From: Eubacterium limosum
GTDB taxonomy: Bacteria; Bacillota; Clostridia; Eubacteriales; Eubacteriaceae
Assembly: GCF_000807675.2 (NCBI RefSeq)
Contig: NZ_CP019962.1
Coordinates: forward strand, 3,286,001-3,350,000
Length of the DNA: 64,000 bases
Direction of reading: 5' to 3'
Of this stretch, positions 1,867 to 47,376 are shown one piece after another. The position numbers and the translations under genes were made by a program. Under the pieces are notes generated by a model that saw only the letters and a list, made by a program, of their open reading frames with translations, ran no database searches and was not told the origin of the DNA. Positions within the stretch are counted from its first letter, which is position 1, and each line of letters opens with the position of its first letter.

Positions 1867-1910
1867 TTTCCATCATTCCCACAGGCCTCCATCGCTCAGA
1901 TAAAGACCGT

Positions 1911-2073
1911 CAAACCACTTCAGGCAGGTTTTCTGACTGAGGATTAACGCCGGGCTCCCTTCCCATCCTATTGGACAGTGGTGATGAGCCGGGCAATCCA
2001 CTTACAGCGGCGGGCCCGTCTAAGAATCTCACTTAGTTCCCTATTATCTGCCATGCAGCACCTGAAATGTTTT
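1911..2073 (-). promoter_or_regulatory. Cobalamin (AdoCbl-type) riboswitch aptamer
   Basis: Read leftward, the segment holds the cobalamin aptamer landmarks in order: CAGGTGCTGCATGGC, then GGGAA followed by a GTGAGATTC-type stretch, then CGCCGCTGTAAGTGG, then GATGGGAAGG, and finally AGTCAGAAAACCTGCC. The ends pair (AAAC..TTCAGG with CCTGAA..GTTT) to form P1. Known members of this class lower expression of the downstream gene when B12 is abundant. The controlled genes here are the dehydrogenase and the TrpD-like protein. Confidence 0.92.
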
Positions 2074-2204
2074 ATGCTTTTTTATTATCATATCACATTT
2101 GCTTTGGGTGTCAAGATAAAATGTAAAAGTTTTAATCCAAACGTGATATAATAGCGGTATTAACTATGCGGCGACGCTGTTTATAAAAAATGAGGAGGAA
2201 AAGA

Positions 2205-5757: not shown

Positions 5758-5842
5758 GGGGAGAATGGAAATTGAAAATGGAAAATTATGGTGCAAATCC
5801 GTCTTGCAGATTTGATAATATGTGGCCTTTGGCCGCTTTGGG
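5758..5842 (+). repeat. Partial MITE-like repeat (same family as 8008-8184)
   Basis: It begins with GGGGAGAATGGAAATTGAAA and ATGGAAAAT, a degenerate copy of the motif that opens the element at 8008. Two compact hairpins follow (CAAATC..GATTTG and GGCC TTT GGCC). It appears truncated, because it runs directly into an unrelated repeat fragment at 5851. Confidence 0.45.
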
Positions 5843-5850
5843 CTGTCTAA

Positions 5851-5890
5851 AAACCTGAGAGACGAAGCCTTTGACCTAAGGAAGAAAAAA
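5851..5890 (-). repeat. Truncated, inverted 3' end of the 227-bp repeat family
   Basis: The reverse complement reads TTTTTTCTTCCTTAGG, then TCAAAGGCTTCGTCTC, then a short T-rich tail. This is the conserved 3' block of the structured repeat at 19.3-19.9 kb and 34.1 kb. The matching 5' half is absent, so this is a fragment. Confidence 0.6.
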
Positions 5891-5899
5891 GCATCCTGT

Positions 5900-5933
5900 G
5901 ATGATGTGCTGTTTTGGCACATCATCTTTTTTT
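5900..5933 (+). terminator. Intrinsic terminator of the PhoB/PhoR-like operon
   Basis: A perfect 10-bp stem (GATGATGTGC / GCACATCATC) with a 7-nt loop is followed by seven T. Confidence 0.9.
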
Positions 5934-5993
5934 ATGGCCGCGGGCAGTTTTGGCCGGAATAGAAAGTTAAAAAAATATCAATTCAAATAAAGC

Positions 5994-19247: not shown

Positions 19248-19287
19248 CAGGTTGACGGCAGGCAGAGGGTAGGGTAAACTTTTAAGA

Positions 19288-19947
19288 GCAGCGGCGCGGA
19301 CTGCGCCTTTTATCCAGATAAGAAAAAGGGACCAGGCGCCGCGGACACGGCCGGGAATTGTGCCGCTTTAGTGGGACAGCCGGACACTGGCAAGATCAGG
19401 TATCAACGCCAGCCAAGAAGCTTCAGGCGTGAAGGCAGTACCCGCAGGCCGCCTTTTTCTTCCTTAGGTAAAAGGCTTCGTCTCAAGAGGTTTTTTGGCG
19501 AACTGAACAGCGGCGGCGCAGTGCGGACTGCGCCTTTTATCCAGATAAGAAAAAGGGATCAGGCGTCGCGGACACGGCCGGGAATTGTGCCGCTTTGGCG
19601 GGACAGCCGGACACTGGCAAGATCAGGTATCAACGCCAGCCAAGAAGCTTCAGGCGTGAAGGCAGTACCCGCAGGCCGCCTTTTTCTTCCTTAGATAAAA
19701 GGCTTCGTCTCAAGAGGTTTTTTGGCGAACTGAACAGCGGCGGCGCAGTGCGGACTGCGCCTTTTATCCAGATAAGAAAAAGGAACCAGGCGCCGTGGAC
19801 AAGGCCGGGGATCGTGCCGTTTTAGTGGGACAGCCGGACACTGGCAAGATCAGGTATCAACGCCAGCCAAGAAGCTTCAGGCGTGAAAGCAGTACCCGCA
19901 GGCCGCCTTTTTCTTCCTTAGGTAAAAGGCTTCGTCTGCTGGGTTTT
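19288..19947 (+). repeat. Three tandem copies of a 227-bp structured repeat
   Basis: The sequence repeats with an exact period of 227 bp (for example GGACAGCCGGACACTGGCAA at about 19374, 19601 and 19828). Each copy has a 5' strand GCCTTTTATCC..TAAG..AAAAAGG that is complementary to its 3' strand CCTTTTTCTTCCTTA and GGTAAAAGGC, closing a branched interior. The 5' hairpin GCGCAGT/ACTGCGC is partly deleted in copy 1. Each copy ends in GGTTTTTT. Since 227 is not a multiple of three, a reading frame cannot repeat, so noncoding function is favoured. A fourth copy is at 33957 and a fragment at 5851. Confidence 0.9.
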
Positions 19948-20000
19948 TTTGTCATACTGTATAGCGGCAGCGCCGCGGGTAATGGATTTTGAGGTGAGAA

Positions 20001-23760: not shown

Positions 23761-23770
23761 TTGATGTTTT

Positions 23771-24035
23771 GTCCAATTTTTGAAAAAAATTGGCAGGGGT
23801 AAAGGAGCGTTAGCGGTTACCCCGGTAACAAAACGAACGCAAAACATTGCGGAAATTCACAAATCCAGATAGTTATTTCAGCAGTGTTTTGTGATCAATA
23901 TCTGTCCAATTTTTGAAAAAATTGGCAGGGGTAAAGGAGCGTTAGCGGTTACCCCGGTAACAAAACGAACGCAAAACATTGCGGAAATTGACCAATCCGC
24001 ATAGTTATTTCAGCAGTGTTTTGTGATCATTACAT
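23771..24035 (+). repeat. Duplicated structured module between T-box terminator and trpE
   Basis: Two tandem copies of about 133 bp (from 23771 and 23904) are nearly identical. Each can form CCAATTTTT/AAAAATTGG, GGGGTAA/TTACCCC, and a 13-bp helix CGCAAAACATTGC with GCAGTGTTTTGTG (23838-23850 with 23881-23893; 23970-23982 with 24013-24025) that encloses GAAAT/ATTTC. Nearly all differences between copies fall in the terminal loop of the last hairpin. The second copy ends about 10 bp before the AAAGGAG site of trpE. Confidence 0.75.
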
Positions 24036-32748: not shown

Positions 32749-33912
32749 ATGGATTACAATAAAGAAGCGCTGAAAGCCCATGAAGCGTGCAAAGGCAAAG
32801 TAGAAGTCGTTTCTAAGATGAAACTTGAAAATAAAGATGATCTGAGCATCGCCTACACACCGGGTGTTGCCGAACCCTGCCGCAAAATCGCGGAGAATAA
32901 AGAGGATGTCTATAAATATACTGCCAAGGGAAACCTGGTCGCGGTTTTATCTGACGGCTCGGCGGTTTTAGGCCTTGGCAATATCGGCGGTGAAGCCGCT
33001 ATGCCTGTTATGGAGGGCAAGGCTGTCCTGTTTAAATCCTTTGGCAATGTCGACGCATTCCCGATCTGTGTGAGCACACAGAACGCTGATGAGATTATTC
33101 AGACAGGCATCAATATCGCGCCGACCTTTGGGGGAATTAACCTGGAGGATATTTCTGCGCCGAAATGCTTTGAAATTGAGGAAAAGCTTCAGGAAGCCCT
33201 GGATATTCCGGTTTTCCATGATGACCAGCACGGTACGGCCATTGTTGTCTCCTCTGCGCTCATCAACGCCCTGAAAATTGTTAAGAAAGACATTTCTGAG
33301 ATCAAGGTAGCCATCAGCGGCCCGGGGGCTGCTGGGACAGCCATTGCAAAAATGCTGATGTCCTTAAATGTAAAAAATATCGTCATGTGTGACCGCACTG
33401 GCATCATTGATATCAGCCGTGACGGTCTGACCGGCCATAAGCTCTGGCTGGCTGAGCACACCAATCAGGAACACATTACCGGAAGTCTGGAAGATGCCAT
33501 CAAAGGCGCTGATGTCTTAGTCGGTGTGTCTGGCCCTGGTATTGTCACAGAGGAGATGGTCGCTTCTATGAATAAAGACGCCATTCTTTTTGCTATGGCG
33601 AACCCTATTCCTGAAATTATGCCGGATCTGGCTAAAAAAGCGGGCGCGCGTGTCATTGGCACTGGCCGGTCTGATTTTCCAAACCAGATCAACAATGTCC
33701 TGGCGTTCCCAGGGATTTTCAGAGGCGCGCTGGACGCAAGGGCGTCACGCATCACTGAAGGCATGAAGGTAGCGGCAGCCTATGCCATCGCTGACCTCGT
33801 AAGCGCAGAGGAACTGAATGAAGATTATGTTATGCCGAGCCCTTTTGATAAACGTGTGGCTCCAGCGGTTGCCAAGGCTGTTTACGATGCCTGGATGAAG
33901 GAAGTAAAATAA
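32749..33912 (+). CDS. NAD(P)-dependent malic enzyme
   Basis: A 387-residue enzyme of the short bacterial type, which converts malate to pyruvate and CO2. It shows [31 protein letters not shown], the substrate/metal region [25 protein letters not shown], a nucleotide-binding [14 protein letters not shown], and [15 protein letters not shown] precedes the ATG. With fumarase in the same window, it links C4 acids to pyruvate. Cofactor preference cannot be fixed from the sequence. Confidence 0.94.
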
Positions 33913-33956
33913 GAAAAAAGCCTGCTCGGTTTGAGTGAGGTTCAGACTGTTAAAGA

Positions 33957-34166
33957 AGTGGCGCAGCGTGAGACTGCGCCTTTTATCCAGATAAGAAAAA
34001 AGTCCAGGCGCTGCGGATAACGACAAAAAATCGCGCCGCTTTACCGGAATAGCCGGACATAAGAGCGATCAAACAGCCACGTTAGTGAAGAAATTGCAGA
34101 TGCAAAGGCAGCGCCCGCAGGACGTTTTTTCTTCCTTAGGAAAAAGGCTTCGTCTCTCAGTTTTTT
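33957..34166 (+). repeat. Fourth, diverged copy of the 227-bp structured repeat
   Basis: It shares the ends with the tandem array (GCGCAG..CTGCGCCTTTTATCCAG and TTTTTTCTTCCTTAGG..AAAAGGCTTCGTCTC), while the interior has diverged. At the same positions it keeps hairpins with other base pairs: GCGG..CGA/TCG..CCGC instead of GCGG..CAC/GTG..CCGC, and TTGC/GCAA instead of CTTCA/TGAAG. It also adds GGCGCTGC/GCAGCGCC to the closing helix. These replacements support an RNA-level structure. Confidence 0.8.
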
Positions 34167-34172
34167 GACATT

Positions 34173-34204
34173 AAAAAGCTCTCTCATGCTGAGGGAGCTT
34201 TTCT
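34173..34204. terminator. Bidirectional terminator
   Basis: AAAAGCTCTCT and AGGGAGCTTTT form a stem around a CATGCTG-type loop, with A- and T-rich ends. It lies between the structured repeat and the DUF3089 gene and can serve both strands. Confidence 0.75.
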
Positions 34205-37649: not shown

Positions 37650-39074
37650 ATGAGTTTTTCTGAAATTATTGCGGTGGTCAATGACTTTGTGTGGGGACCA
37701 TACATGCTTGTGCTGTTAGTGGGTACAGGTGTCTTTTTGACCATACGCCTGAAGTTTTTGCCGTGGCGAAATCTGGGGTATGCCCTGAGATCGGTGTTTA
37801 CCCGTCCGTCCAAGGATGAAAATGCCAAGGAGCACAGCGGGGATATCTCGCCGTTCCAGTCTCTGATGACCGCTCTGGCCGCGACCATTGGCACCGGCAA
37901 TATTGTCGGTGTTGCCACTGCCATGGTATTGGGCGGCCCGGGCGCTCTGGTGTGGATGTGGATCAGCGCGCTGTTTGGGCTCTCCACCAAATACGGTGAG
38001 AGTGTTCTGGCGGTCAAATACCGTGAGACCAACTCGTCTGGTGAGATGGCTGGCGGCCCTATGTACGCCATGAAAAAGGGATTCAAGGTTAAATGGCTGG
38101 GAAGTCTGCTGGCGTTTTTGTTTTCACTTTTTGCTGTTATCGCGTCCTTTGGTATCGGTAACCTGACGCAGGCGAATTCCATCTCTGATGCGGTACAGAA
38201 TACCTTTGGGGTGCCGACCTGGATCACTGGTGTTGTCCTGACTGTTTTGGCGTTGATCGTTCTTTTGGGCGGTATCAAGAGTATTGGCCGTGTCTGCGGT
38301 TTTATTGTTCCGATCATGGCGGTGTTCTATTTTGTAGCCGGAATCCTTGTTATTATCATTAATTTTCACAATGTACCGGCTGGAATCGTTGAGATCTTCC
38401 GCATGGCTTTTTCACCTCAGGCAGTTGCCGGCGGTGTGGGCGGTTCCATCATTGCGAGTATGCTTTCAGCCATGCGCTGGGGCGTCGCGCGGGGGGTGTT
38501 TTCAAATGAAGCGGGTCTTGGCTCTGCGCCGATAGCGGCGGCAGCGGCTAAAACAGACCATCCCTCAAGACAGGGCTATATCAATATGACGGGTACCTTC
38601 TTTGACACACTGGTTGTCTGTACGATTACCGGCCTTGTTATCGCATCCTCAGGTGTACTTGGAATGACCGATGCGGCAGGTGAGATCTATACCGGAGCGA
38701 ACCTGACCATCAGGGCCTTTGAGTCAGCCATTGGACCAGTAGGGGCTTTGATCGTTACCATCGGTATTATGCTGTTTGCATTTTCGACCATACTGGGCTG
38801 GGAGTACTATGGCGAAAAGTCACTGGAATATTTGATCCCCTCAACTGTGGCGGTTAAAATTTACCGATTTGTCTTTTCAGTCGTCACGTTTTTTGGCGCG
38901 ACAACGGCACTGCAGATTGTATGGGATTTTTCCGATACCATGAATGGCCTGATGGCAATTCCAAATCTTATCTGCCTGTTGGTGCTCAACAAGGTGATCG
39001 CCCGGGAATGCTTTGATTATCAGGAAAATATCCTGATTCCTGAAAGGGAAATGCGAAAGCTCAAGAAGAAGTAG
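37650..39074 (+). CDS. Sodium:alanine/glycine symporter (AGCS family)
   Basis: A 474-residue inner-membrane transporter with about 11 helices. The family signatures are SPFQSLMTALAATIGTGNIV near residue 70, MWISALFGLSTKYGE, GGPMYAMKKG, the consensus GVFSNEAGLGSAPIAAAAA and LGWEYYGEKSLEYL. It imports alanine, glycine or a related amino acid with Na+. GGGAGGGAG precedes the start; it is a single-gene unit with promoter and terminator. Confidence 0.94.
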   Translation: MSFSEIIAVVNDFVWGPYMLVLLVGTGVFLTIRLKFLPWRNLGYALRSVFTRPSKDENAKEHSGDISPFQSLMTALAATIGTGNIVGVATAMVLGGPGALVWMWISALFGLSTKYGESVLAVKYRETNSSGEMAGGPMYAMKKGFKVKWLGSLLAFLFSLFAVIASFGIGNLTQANSISDAVQNTFGVPTWITGVVLTVLALIVLLGGIKSIGRVCGFIVPIMAVFYFVAGILVIIINFHNVPAGIVEIFRMAFSPQAVAGGVGGSIIASMLSAMRWGVARGVFSNEAGLGSAPIAAAAAKTDHPSRQGYINMTGTFFDTLVVCTITGLVIASSGVLGMTDAAGEIYTGANLTIRAFESAIGPVGALIVTIGIMLFAFSTILGWEYYGEKSLEYLIPSTVAVKIYRFVFSVVTFFGATTALQIVWDFSDTMNGLMAIPNLICLLVLNKVIARECFDYQENILIPEREMRKLKKK

Positions 39075-44367: not shown

Positions 44368-44398
44368 AAGGGGCCGGATATTTATTCGGTCCTTTTTC
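44368..44398 (+). terminator. Terminator of the obg-rsfS cluster
   Basis: AAGGGGCCG and CGGTCCTT pair around GATATTTATT, followed by TTTCTTTG. Confidence 0.75.
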
Positions 44399-45639: not shown

Positions 45640-47376
45640 ATGAGTAAATGTGTATTAGTGGGTGTCAATGCAAAATATGTGCACACCAATCTTGCCATAA
45701 GAGCTCTGAAAGCAGCCGCGCAGGCGGAAAATATCGAGCTTTGTGAGGTAACCATTAACGACCAGATGAACGTGGTGGTCGGCAGGCTTTTGAGAATGCA
45801 GGGAGATTACTATGGCTTTTCCTGCTATATCTGGAATATGGACTTTATTGCAAAAATCAGTGAAGTGCTGAAAAAGAGCAGGCCCAACTGCATTGTCTTC
45901 TGGGGAGGGCCTGAGGTTTCCTATGACAGCGGGCGCCTTCTGGAGGATCACCCATTCGTGGATTATATTATTTCCGGCGAGGGGGAAACCGTTTTTCCTG
46001 AATTTGTAAAGACACTGCAGAGCCGGGATAAAACCCCGCTTCTGAAAATGGAAAACGTCAACTGGTTTGGGCGCAATGTGTCCCATTCGCATGTAAGCGG
46101 CGAAAAGGTGGGGATTGTCGAGGATCTGGACGCACTGCCCTTCCCCTATGACGACCAAAATATCCAGCCGATTTCAGACAAAATCATTTATTATGAAAGC
46201 ATGCGGGGCTGCCCCTTCCAGTGTTCCTACTGCCTTTCTTCCACCCTGCAGAAGGTACGTTTTCTGCCCCTCGAGCGTGTTTTCAGAGAGCTGGATTTTT
46301 TCATCAGCCACGATGTAAAGCAGGTGAAATTTGTGGACCGCACCTTCAATGTCGATATCCGGCGGACCAAGGCCATCATCGCTTACCTGGTCAAAAAGGA
46401 ATGCGCTACGAATTTTCATTTTGAGATCGCGGGGGATCTGCTGGACGATGAGCTTCTTGAGATGATTGCAAAAGCACCAAAGGGCCTGATGCAGTTTGAG
46501 ATCGGTATCCAGAGCACTCATGATGAAACGCTGGAGGCGATCACGCGAAAGACTGATCTGGAAAAGATCCGGAAAAATGTGAAGCGTCTCATCGGGTTTA
46601 AAAACTGCCATGTGCACGTGGACCTGATCGCCGGGCTGCCAAAGGAAACCTATGCGGTTTTTAAAAAGTCCTTTGACGAGACCATTGCCATTGAGCCAGA
46701 TATGCTGCAGCTGGGATTTTTAAAGCTGCTGAAGGGGACAAAGATCCGAAAAGAAGCGGATAAATTTTATTACCGCTACGCGAGCTTTCCGCCTTATGAG
46801 GTGATCAGTAATGATTTTATCTCCTCGGATGAGCTTATGCGCTTAAAGGACATTGAGGACCTGGTAGACCGCTATTACAATTCCGGCGCCTTTTATCTGA
46901 GTTTGAAGTATATTTTTGAAAACCAGTGCTGGGGCTCACCCTTTGAATTTTTTGAGGCTTTCTCGGACTATTGGCGGGAGGAAGGCTTCTATGAGCTGGG
47001 AAAATCAAAGGAACAGCTCTACGGGATTCTGCAGACATTTACGACCTCAGGCGACGAGTCGCCCCATAAAGAAATGCTCGGGGAGCTGATCAAAATGGAT
47101 TATCTCAGGCAGGGGCACCGCTCCCTTCCCGTTTTTTTTGAAAACCGGACCCTCTCAAAAACAGCGGCCTTTGAGCAGCTGAAGGACGAAGGTTTTGTGG
47201 CTGCCTGTGTGCCTGCGCTCTCAGGACAGCCTGCCAAGCAGGTGATCAAGCGCGTCTTTTTCCAGTATTTTGAAGAAAACGCCCTTGACCTTGCCCAGAG
47301 GTATCTGGGGACAGAGCCGGGCAGGGGAAGCCTCTGCGTCTTTTATGAGGGTGCGATGATCCGGGTGGCCGGGTAA
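45640..47376 (+). CDS. B12-binding-type radical SAM protein with DUF4080 C-terminus
   Basis: A 578-residue protein. The N-terminal B12-binding-like domain (LVGVNAKYVHTNLAIRAL, FWGGPEVSYD, ISGEGE) lacks an obvious DXHXXG motif, so cobalamin binding is uncertain. The radical-SAM core has the cluster motif RGCPFQCSYCLSS near residue 190 and VDLIAGLPKET later. The C-terminal region matches the layout of DUF4080. The substrate is unknown. AGAGGAAAC precedes the start. Confidence 0.88.
   Translation: MSKCVLVGVNAKYVHTNLAIRALKAAAQAENIELCEVTINDQMNVVVGRLLRMQGDYYGFSCYIWNMDFIAKISEVLKKSRPNCIVFWGGPEVSYDSGRLLEDHPFVDYIISGEGETVFPEFVKTLQSRDKTPLLKMENVNWFGRNVSHSHVSGEKVGIVEDLDALPFPYDDQNIQPISDKIIYYESMRGCPFQCSYCLSSTLQKVRFLPLERVFRELDFFISHDVKQVKFVDRTFNVDIRRTKAIIAYLVKKECATNFHFEIAGDLLDDELLEMIAKAPKGLMQFEIGIQSTHDETLEAITRKTDLEKIRKNVKRLIGFKNCHVHVDLIAGLPKETYAVFKKSFDETIAIEPDMLQLGFLKLLKGTKIRKEADKFYYRYASFPPYEVISNDFISSDELMRLKDIEDLVDRYYNSGAFYLSLKYIFENQCWGSPFEFFEAFSDYWREEGFYELGKSKEQLYGILQTFTTSGDESPHKEMLGELIKMDYLRQGHRSLPVFFENRTLSKTAAFEQLKDEGFVAACVPALSGQPAKQVIKRVFFQYFEENALDLAQRYLGTEPGRGSLCVFYEGAMIRVAG

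Follow-up and report, generated by a model that had tools for sequence, protein, structure and literature searches.

The window analysed here is a stretch of 64,000 bp from the genome of Eubacterium limosum ATCC 8486 (bases 3,286,001-3,350,000 of a single contig of 4,422,837 bp), and it carries copies of one repeat at several places. Three tandem copies start at 19291, 19518 and 19745, with an exact period of 227 and with 100, 97 and 91% identity to the first copy. TRF called this array at 19296-19937 (2.8 copies, score 1200), and profile matches placed the copies, all on the plus strand, at 19284-19504, 19507-19731 and 19734-19959. The left end of the first copy is altered, without a clear CAGNNTGTCAAA end, and the right end of the third is TTTTTTTGTCATACTG. 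The longest open reading frame listed over the array (107 aa, 19371-19694) spans a copy junction. A fourth, complete copy lies on the plus strand at 33943-34172 (profile match 33947-34170), behind a malic-enzyme gene recognised by Pfam (32749-33912), and has the ends CAGACTGTTAAAG and TTTTTTGACATT. It is preceded by a strongly decayed hairpin copy (33918-33942, plus strand) and followed by a terminator stem-loop, AAAAAGCTCTCTCATGCTGAGGGAGCTTTT (34173-34203, plus strand). A right-end fragment was detected on the minus strand at 5842-5899 by a profile match and inverted pairs, adjoining another stem-loop at about 5896-5935. The initial annotation had proposed the tandem copies, a further copy near 34 kb and an inverted 3' fragment near 5.85 kb, and self-comparison, TRF and the profile matches bear all of them out.

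A search of the window with the end-motif pattern, allowing three mismatches, returned 10 matches, compared to a mean of 0.99 and a largest value of 4 in shuffles; the match at 46888 is probably due to chance. End-motif matches at 3,400,940, at 3,627,234 and at 38,599 of the window were judged by eye to be coding or gene-side chance matches. The window also contains a cobalamin riboswitch (1906-2080, minus strand, 102.9 bits) and two tandem copies of a 132-bp unit (23770-24029, 96% matches), the sequence of which is unrelated to the element.

The element is about 235 bp long, has no coding capacity and is non-autonomous and MITE-like. Its ends are CAGNNTGTCAAARA-like terminal inverted repeats, the element starting with a CAGNNTGTCAAARAAGTGGC-like and finishing with a TTTTTGACANNCTG-like sequence. 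Inside these lies a long, polarised subterminal inverted repeat with arms of some 30 bp (GAGACnnnGCCTTTTA...). The complementarity of the 5' and 3' blocks, described earlier as a closing helix, is real. The left arm (TCCAGAT) and the right arm (CCTAAGG) are distinct almost without exception, and the element therefore has an intrinsic polarity. The middle is variable, except for conserved blocks such as AGCCGGACA and CCCGCAGGAC. With two mismatches allowed, the conserved-end pattern gave 117 matches genome-wide, compared to 7 for the reversed pattern.

To count copies in E. limosum and its relatives, we searched fetched stretches with a profile built from 30 copies. The relatives were two congeners, G001 and G002, and E. 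callanderi FD (G003); two test genes are 87-92% identical to those of E. limosum in the former two and 95-96% identical in the latter. The search gave 102 full-length matches, from which one was subtracted (L156:4910, minus strand, one place read twice), leaving 51 copies in E. limosum, 6 in G001, 29 in G002 and 15 in G003 (101 altogether). By blastn over 61 genomes of 24 genera, with at most 12 candidates scored per genome, the element was found in four genomes, all of them Eubacterium, and was not detected in G004, a fifth, less complete genome of the genus. A public genome collection, which may omit the E. limosum genome itself, yielded 12 places, all in E. callanderi FD. No match was found in plasmid, phage and viral collections, from which records near the E. 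limosum genome may be omitted, and carriage by a phage, plasmid or virus was rejected on this result. The element is thus short and multi-copy, without coding capacity, and has terminal inverted repeats, target-site duplications and empty sites, the last two of which are described below. By these features it is best read as a MITE rather than as an RNA gene. This agrees with the earlier alternative of a structured mobile repeat of the genus, given the many occupied sites, the empty sites and the restriction to Eubacterium in the 61-genome search.

Two further sequences were seen alongside the family. At L046:4836-5053 (E. limosum 1,461,335-1,461,552) a longer, 218-nt middle replaces the usual interior, and it recurs at L045, L043 (partial), L144, L149 and L173, including the G002 ortholog of the 19.3-kb array. 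This middle has a very strong predicted RNA fold (-82 kcal/mol) and is conserved across species; Rfam gave no match to it at gathering score. Its 3' end carries a hairpin motif, GATTCACACC...GGGTTCTCT, which also occurs in nine genomes outside the genus among the 61 searched (L209-L217 and L221-L224 in other genera of the family; also L046, L220 and L208). The places read outside the genus lie within or beside tRNA gene clusters, and there the 5' end of the tRNA gene itself is repeated after the motif, at some places tandemly. The 4 bp flanking the motif vary jointly (AAGC/GCTT, AAGT/ACTT, AACC/GGTT and AACT/AGTT). This motif is a second small structured repeat. At L090:5251-5515 (E. limosum about 485,250), a sequence of about 265 nt has the same CAGACTGTCAAAAA and TTTTTGACACGTTG ends as the element and a different interior, and it is possibly a second non-autonomous family served by the same enzyme.

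When flanks were added to the copies, locus-specific hairpins were found on both sides of many of them. In 28 of the 51 E. limosum copies, the match between left and right flank exceeded the 99% level set by 600 controls with mismatched flanks; six of these 28 lie within tandem arrays. The flank score was at least 20 in 34 of the 51, the 95% level of the controls being 19. No flank duplication was detected at a score of 20 in the remaining 17, which include the window array; this array and the 34-kb copy are both among the copies with weak flank duplication. For the duplication statistics, distinct sequences with a flank score of at least 30 and a length of at most 45 were retained and L042 and L044 were removed, which left 45 duplications from the four genomes. 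Target duplications are 17-39 nt in size. The median hairpin score of the 45 was 11.8, compared to 6.0 in random windows; it exceeded the 95% control level in 32 and the 99% level in 22, and 13 were not above the 95% level. The length of the duplication was correlated with that of the hairpin (Spearman rho 0.64). Since the array cases and the choice of window might inflate this correlation, the analysis was repeated without arrays and blind. With seven array cases removed (n=38), rho was 0.64, the median edge offsets were 0 and 0 nt, and in 24 of 38 the hairpin and the duplication coincided at both edges to within 3 nt. When a fixed window blind to the duplication was used, the best hairpin was centred inside the duplication in 35 of 38 and rho was 0.65, compared to a mean of 0.07 and a maximum of 0.51 in 200 trials on random windows of the same sizes.

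The duplicated hairpins often resemble terminators. A run of at least four A on the left or of T on the right was present at the outer foot in 33 of the 45 duplications, on both sides in 8 and on neither in 12; the frequency of TTTT in random 12-mers is 7.4%. The usual layout is an A-run, hairpin, element, hairpin and T-run, and several loci have the duplication directly adjoining the terminal inverted repeat at either end of the element. There are exceptions: L056 duplicates a gene end that is not a clear terminator, and L169 repeats only about 9 nt. Collectively, these results show that many copies lie within palindromic stem-loops, often intrinsic terminators, and that the whole stem-loop is duplicated around the element. 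In most transposons the duplication length is fixed by the transposase, and IS families with fixed-stagger duplications of 23-29 bp exist. A fixed stagger was rejected here because the duplication length follows the hairpin.

Empty sites were examined in the four genomes. The 34-kb copy is missing from G001-G003, in which the orthologous place holds one intact terminator, AAAAAGCTCTCTCANNCTGAGGGAGCTTTT. This single hairpin corresponds to the stem-loop on the right of the element in E. limosum, and the decayed left hairpin is additional to it. Conversely, a G002 element (L150:4965) lies between two hairpin copies, and its counterpart in the window is a single terminator hairpin (44370-44392, plus strand). 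Further empty sites were found for G002 L165 relative to E. limosum and E. callanderi, for L069 relative to L157 and for L157 relative to L069. None of the empty-site alignments inspected had two hairpins. At sites shared between species, copies were 91-97% identical at eight and 81-88% identical at the others. Part of the family therefore predates the species. Other sites are unique to one species, and some of these absences may be precise losses. Comparison of the orthologous loci shows the 19.3-kb array to be an old insertion: in G001 and G003 remnants with internal deletions persist, a single copy with a different interior is present in G002, and three copies are found only in E. limosum among the four genomes. 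One terminator is occupied in opposite orientations in E. limosum (L048:4872) and E. callanderi (L141:4934), reflecting either two insertions or an inversion between palindromic flanks.

For 30 elements flanked by good duplications, comparison of the left and right hairpin gave 40 differences in 758 positions, and the nearest relative in the same genome averages 82% identity. Duplications are perfect in 10 of the 30, the nearest relatives of which are 77-90% identical. Loci with perfect duplications include 1,472,129, 3,141,580, 3,559,436 and 4,070,423 of E. limosum. Near-intact duplications around copies with distant relatives fit cut-and-paste movement of old lineages, or loss of the donor. 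Near-identical copies within one genome are rare, unlike in a typical recent MITE burst, and this counts against the MITE-like reading.

To relate element orientation to replication, we used GC skew. In the sampled skew, the sign switches near 0.67-0.81 Mb and near 3.70-3.82 Mb of the E. limosum genome, with one inside sample, at 2.95 Mb, being negative; dnaA is located at 0.690 Mb. With the boundary at 0.78 Mb, 48 of the 51 E. limosum copies are oriented with the leading strand. With the boundary at dnaA the count is 47 of 51, the copy at 753,457 becoming a fourth exception. Local skew around the E. limosum copies was positive at 45, negative at three and near zero at three, and in the relatives it was positive at 5 of 6 (G001), 28 of 30 (G002) and 13 of 15 (G003). 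Collapsing copies that were at least 88% identical, and likewise tandem neighbours, left 74 non-redundant sites, of which 69 followed the leading strand. The split was 44:6 where both neighbour genes were leading and 16:2 where both were lagging, counts that are redundant and derive from simple ORF calls, nine of ten test proteins from which had Pfam matches. Orientation set by transcription was rejected, as the leading-strand bias holds also where both neighbours are lagging. These counts show element orientation tracking the replication fork, whatever the direction of the neighbouring genes. Skew and dnaA together place the origin (~0.69 Mb) and the terminus (~3.78 Mb) about 3.1 and 1.3 Mb apart on either side, and the replichores would be unusually unequal if the assembly is right.

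The initial annotation had inferred selection on RNA structure, and possibly an undescribed noncoding RNA, from compensatory changes between copies. Single copies do fold better than shuffles (z -2.8, -3.1 and -2.3), although this is to be expected, because the long inverted repeat would give it. For covariation, five divergent copies, copies shorter than 205 nt and copies at least 88% identical to a kept one were removed; this gave 75, and removal of two L164 copies left an alignment of 73. RNAalifold returned the closing helix only (20 pairs, -2.64 kcal/mol, covariation term -0.22), with a change on both sides in at least one copy at 8 of the 20 pairs. The covariation null consisted of alignments simulated on a FastTree tree, an approach like R-scape in spirit that is not R-scape. 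Against it, one of 26,565 pairs, located in the closing helix, reached an E of about 0.05; two more, both outside that helix, followed at E 0.1. Pairing of the closing helix is thus weakly supported, and no interior helix is. The two interior hairpins are present in both of the copies originally compared, but as compensatory features of the family they were rejected over the 73 copies. Hairpin 2 is not retained: two of its pairs are canonical in 22 of 73 and 11 of 72, although a third is canonical in 65 of 71. In hairpin 1 a 3-bp core persists (62, 71 and 73 of 73), with changes confined to one side. In the window, no Rfam family matched the repeat at gathering score and only a chance hit was found at E up to 5; a known RNA family was rejected on the lack of an Rfam match, for the repeat as for the long interior. 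The consensus fold is the terminal inverted repeat only, and the inference of an RNA under selection is not supported as it was put. Matched changes in inverted repeats can also be explained by recognition of the two ends by a single DNA-binding protein.

That the repeat is a structured noncoding RNA or 3'-UTR element, amplified through an RNA useful to the host, is very unlikely. It would account for the folding, for the one covarying closing-helix pair and for the conserved central blocks, and the position behind genes would place many copies in transcripts. However, the orientation follows the fork even where both neighbour genes are opposed to it, the duplicated hairpins and the empty sites point to insertion, no interior helix is supported and no Rfam family was found. 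The pattern can be explained without an RNA role, and any such role would be secondary. Less probable still is that the flanking hairpins were not made by insertion at all, and arose by local duplication of a terminator or by gene conversion of one side onto the other. Tandem arrays show that local duplication occurs here, but a lone hairpin without the element is present at the empty sites of the pairs L165/L056, L069/L157 and L150/window, and the duplications of several loci run directly up to the terminal inverted repeat at either end. A third alternative retains mobility and assigns it to single-strand or RNA-mediated machinery, either a Y1/HUH transposase of the IS200/IS605 or RAYT type or something like a group IIC intron, acting on a hairpin on the lagging-strand template. 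The strong replication-linked orientation bias (69 of 74 sites) and the presence of Y1_Tnp (PF01797) matches in all four genomes agree with this alternative. To our knowledge, neither single-strand transposition nor group II introns leave a duplicated hairpin, and group IIC introns insert beside a stem-loop without duplicating it. IS608 and ISDra2 target the lagging-strand template (PMC6006769). For group IIC RNPs, both recognition of a stem-loop in DNA and use of lagging strands at forks are described (PMC10190682), which they would share with the element. Group IIC introns comprise a ribozyme and a reverse transcriptase, whereas the Eubacterium element has no Rfam match, including none to a group II intron. 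Its ends are inverted and not of the hairpin type. Several of the Y1_Tnp matches are broken by stops or are fragments, and no element copy lies within the nine fetched loci of ~3 kb around such matches; Y1 transposase was rejected as the obvious partner on these two observations. RAYT genes are usually flanked by REPs, and REP/REPIN sequences resemble the element in being non-autonomous, palindromic and intergenic, their spread being attributed to a Y1 protein (TnpA-REP) that acts on single strands (PMC6006769). They are not known to duplicate a target hairpin, and they differ in sequence and size from the element. We regard this alternative as unlikely, although more probable than the RNA element.

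The reading that we prefer, a non-autonomous, MITE-like mobile element that inserts in and duplicates stem-loops and is oriented by replication, is likely to be correct. Its mobilising enzyme may be a DDE transposase of IS1182-like type that the relatives sampled here lack, a possible but somewhat doubtful assignment; replication-coupled single-strand machinery is the next-favoured enzyme. A search of the four genomes with the transposase profiles PF01609 (DDE_Tnp_1), PF13751 (DDE_Tnp_1_6) and PF01797 gave, for the first two, a match only to one E. limosum IS, with none for PF13751 in G001-G003. This IS1182-like IS has a 498-aa reading frame and five copies (L113-L117, at 914,672, 1,945,611, 2,255,264, 2,759,722 and 3,682,292). 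Although the core GTGTCAAAA is common to its ends and those of the element, all five copies lie within or next to stretches rich in G and none was found in G001-G003; this IS was therefore rejected as the obvious partner. In the 1,414,221 fetched bases, no IS with matching ends and duplication was found, bar one chance pair bounded by known copies.

Among open-licence papers, we found no named Eubacterium MITE and no description of an element that targets and duplicates terminator hairpins. The closest likeness is to IS1272 of the IS1182 family, which also has terminal inverted repeats and targets stem-loops of unrelated sequence, including ones directly downstream of genes (PMC5678879). IS1272 carries a transposase, replaces its stem-loop and leaves no target duplication, whereas the Eubacterium element duplicates the stem-loop, has no transposase and is replication-oriented (PMC5678879). 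We did not file the element under the IS1272 type, because its stem-loop is duplicated and not replaced. Duplication of the whole stem-loop is drawn for IS1272 as a hypothetical pathway b, with no example in the portion of the Discussion covered (PMC5678879). By analogy, the element would behave like this duplicating branch, which here would be the usual outcome. Bacterial MITEs are similarly small, non-autonomous, multi-copy and intergenic, with inverted-repeat ends, a target duplication and a stable stem-loop if transcribed (PMC10969869). The Eubacterium element differs from MITEs generally in its hairpin-set duplication of 17-39 nt, its strong replication-linked orientation and its rarely near-identical copies. 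We know of no duplication of terminator hairpins by the pneumococcal BOX, RUP and SPRITE repeats, which are unrelated to the element in sequence. They resemble it as small genus-level repeats that give structured transcripts behind genes.

The strand bias suggests that the hairpin is met as a single strand at the fork, since a symmetric cruciform alone would not yield a bias. In the mechanism that we propose, a trans-acting enzyme would join the 3' ends of the element to the two 5' feet of a stem-loop that has been extruded as the replication fork passes. Gap repair would then copy the hairpin, giving the duplication. In the resulting A-run, hairpin, element, hairpin and T-run, the gene would still terminate at the far hairpin, and the insertion would therefore do almost no damage. 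The element could subsequently be excised precisely by slippage or exchange involving its two hairpins, and unequal exchange would give tandem arrays such as that in the window. This full scheme, in which hairpin shape is recognised at the fork, joining is to the 5' feet, the hairpin sets the duplication length, the fork fixes polarity and a selfish element recreates the terminator at almost no cost, is offered tentatively, as quite possibly right.

The family combines a duplication that follows the secondary structure of the target, a target that is often an intrinsic terminator and a polarity that follows the fork. It also advises caution, as mobile inverted repeats behind genes can mimic structured 3'-UTR RNAs with compensatory changes. 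In E. limosum, an acetogen used for syngas conversion, the copies also seed tandem duplication, as with the three copies of 227 bp here. If the mechanism is borne out, the copies would document, in nature, that hairpins are extruded at terminators in living cells and that a selfish element can follow a 'safe harbour' strategy, and they could guide the placement of DNA behind genes with termination intact.
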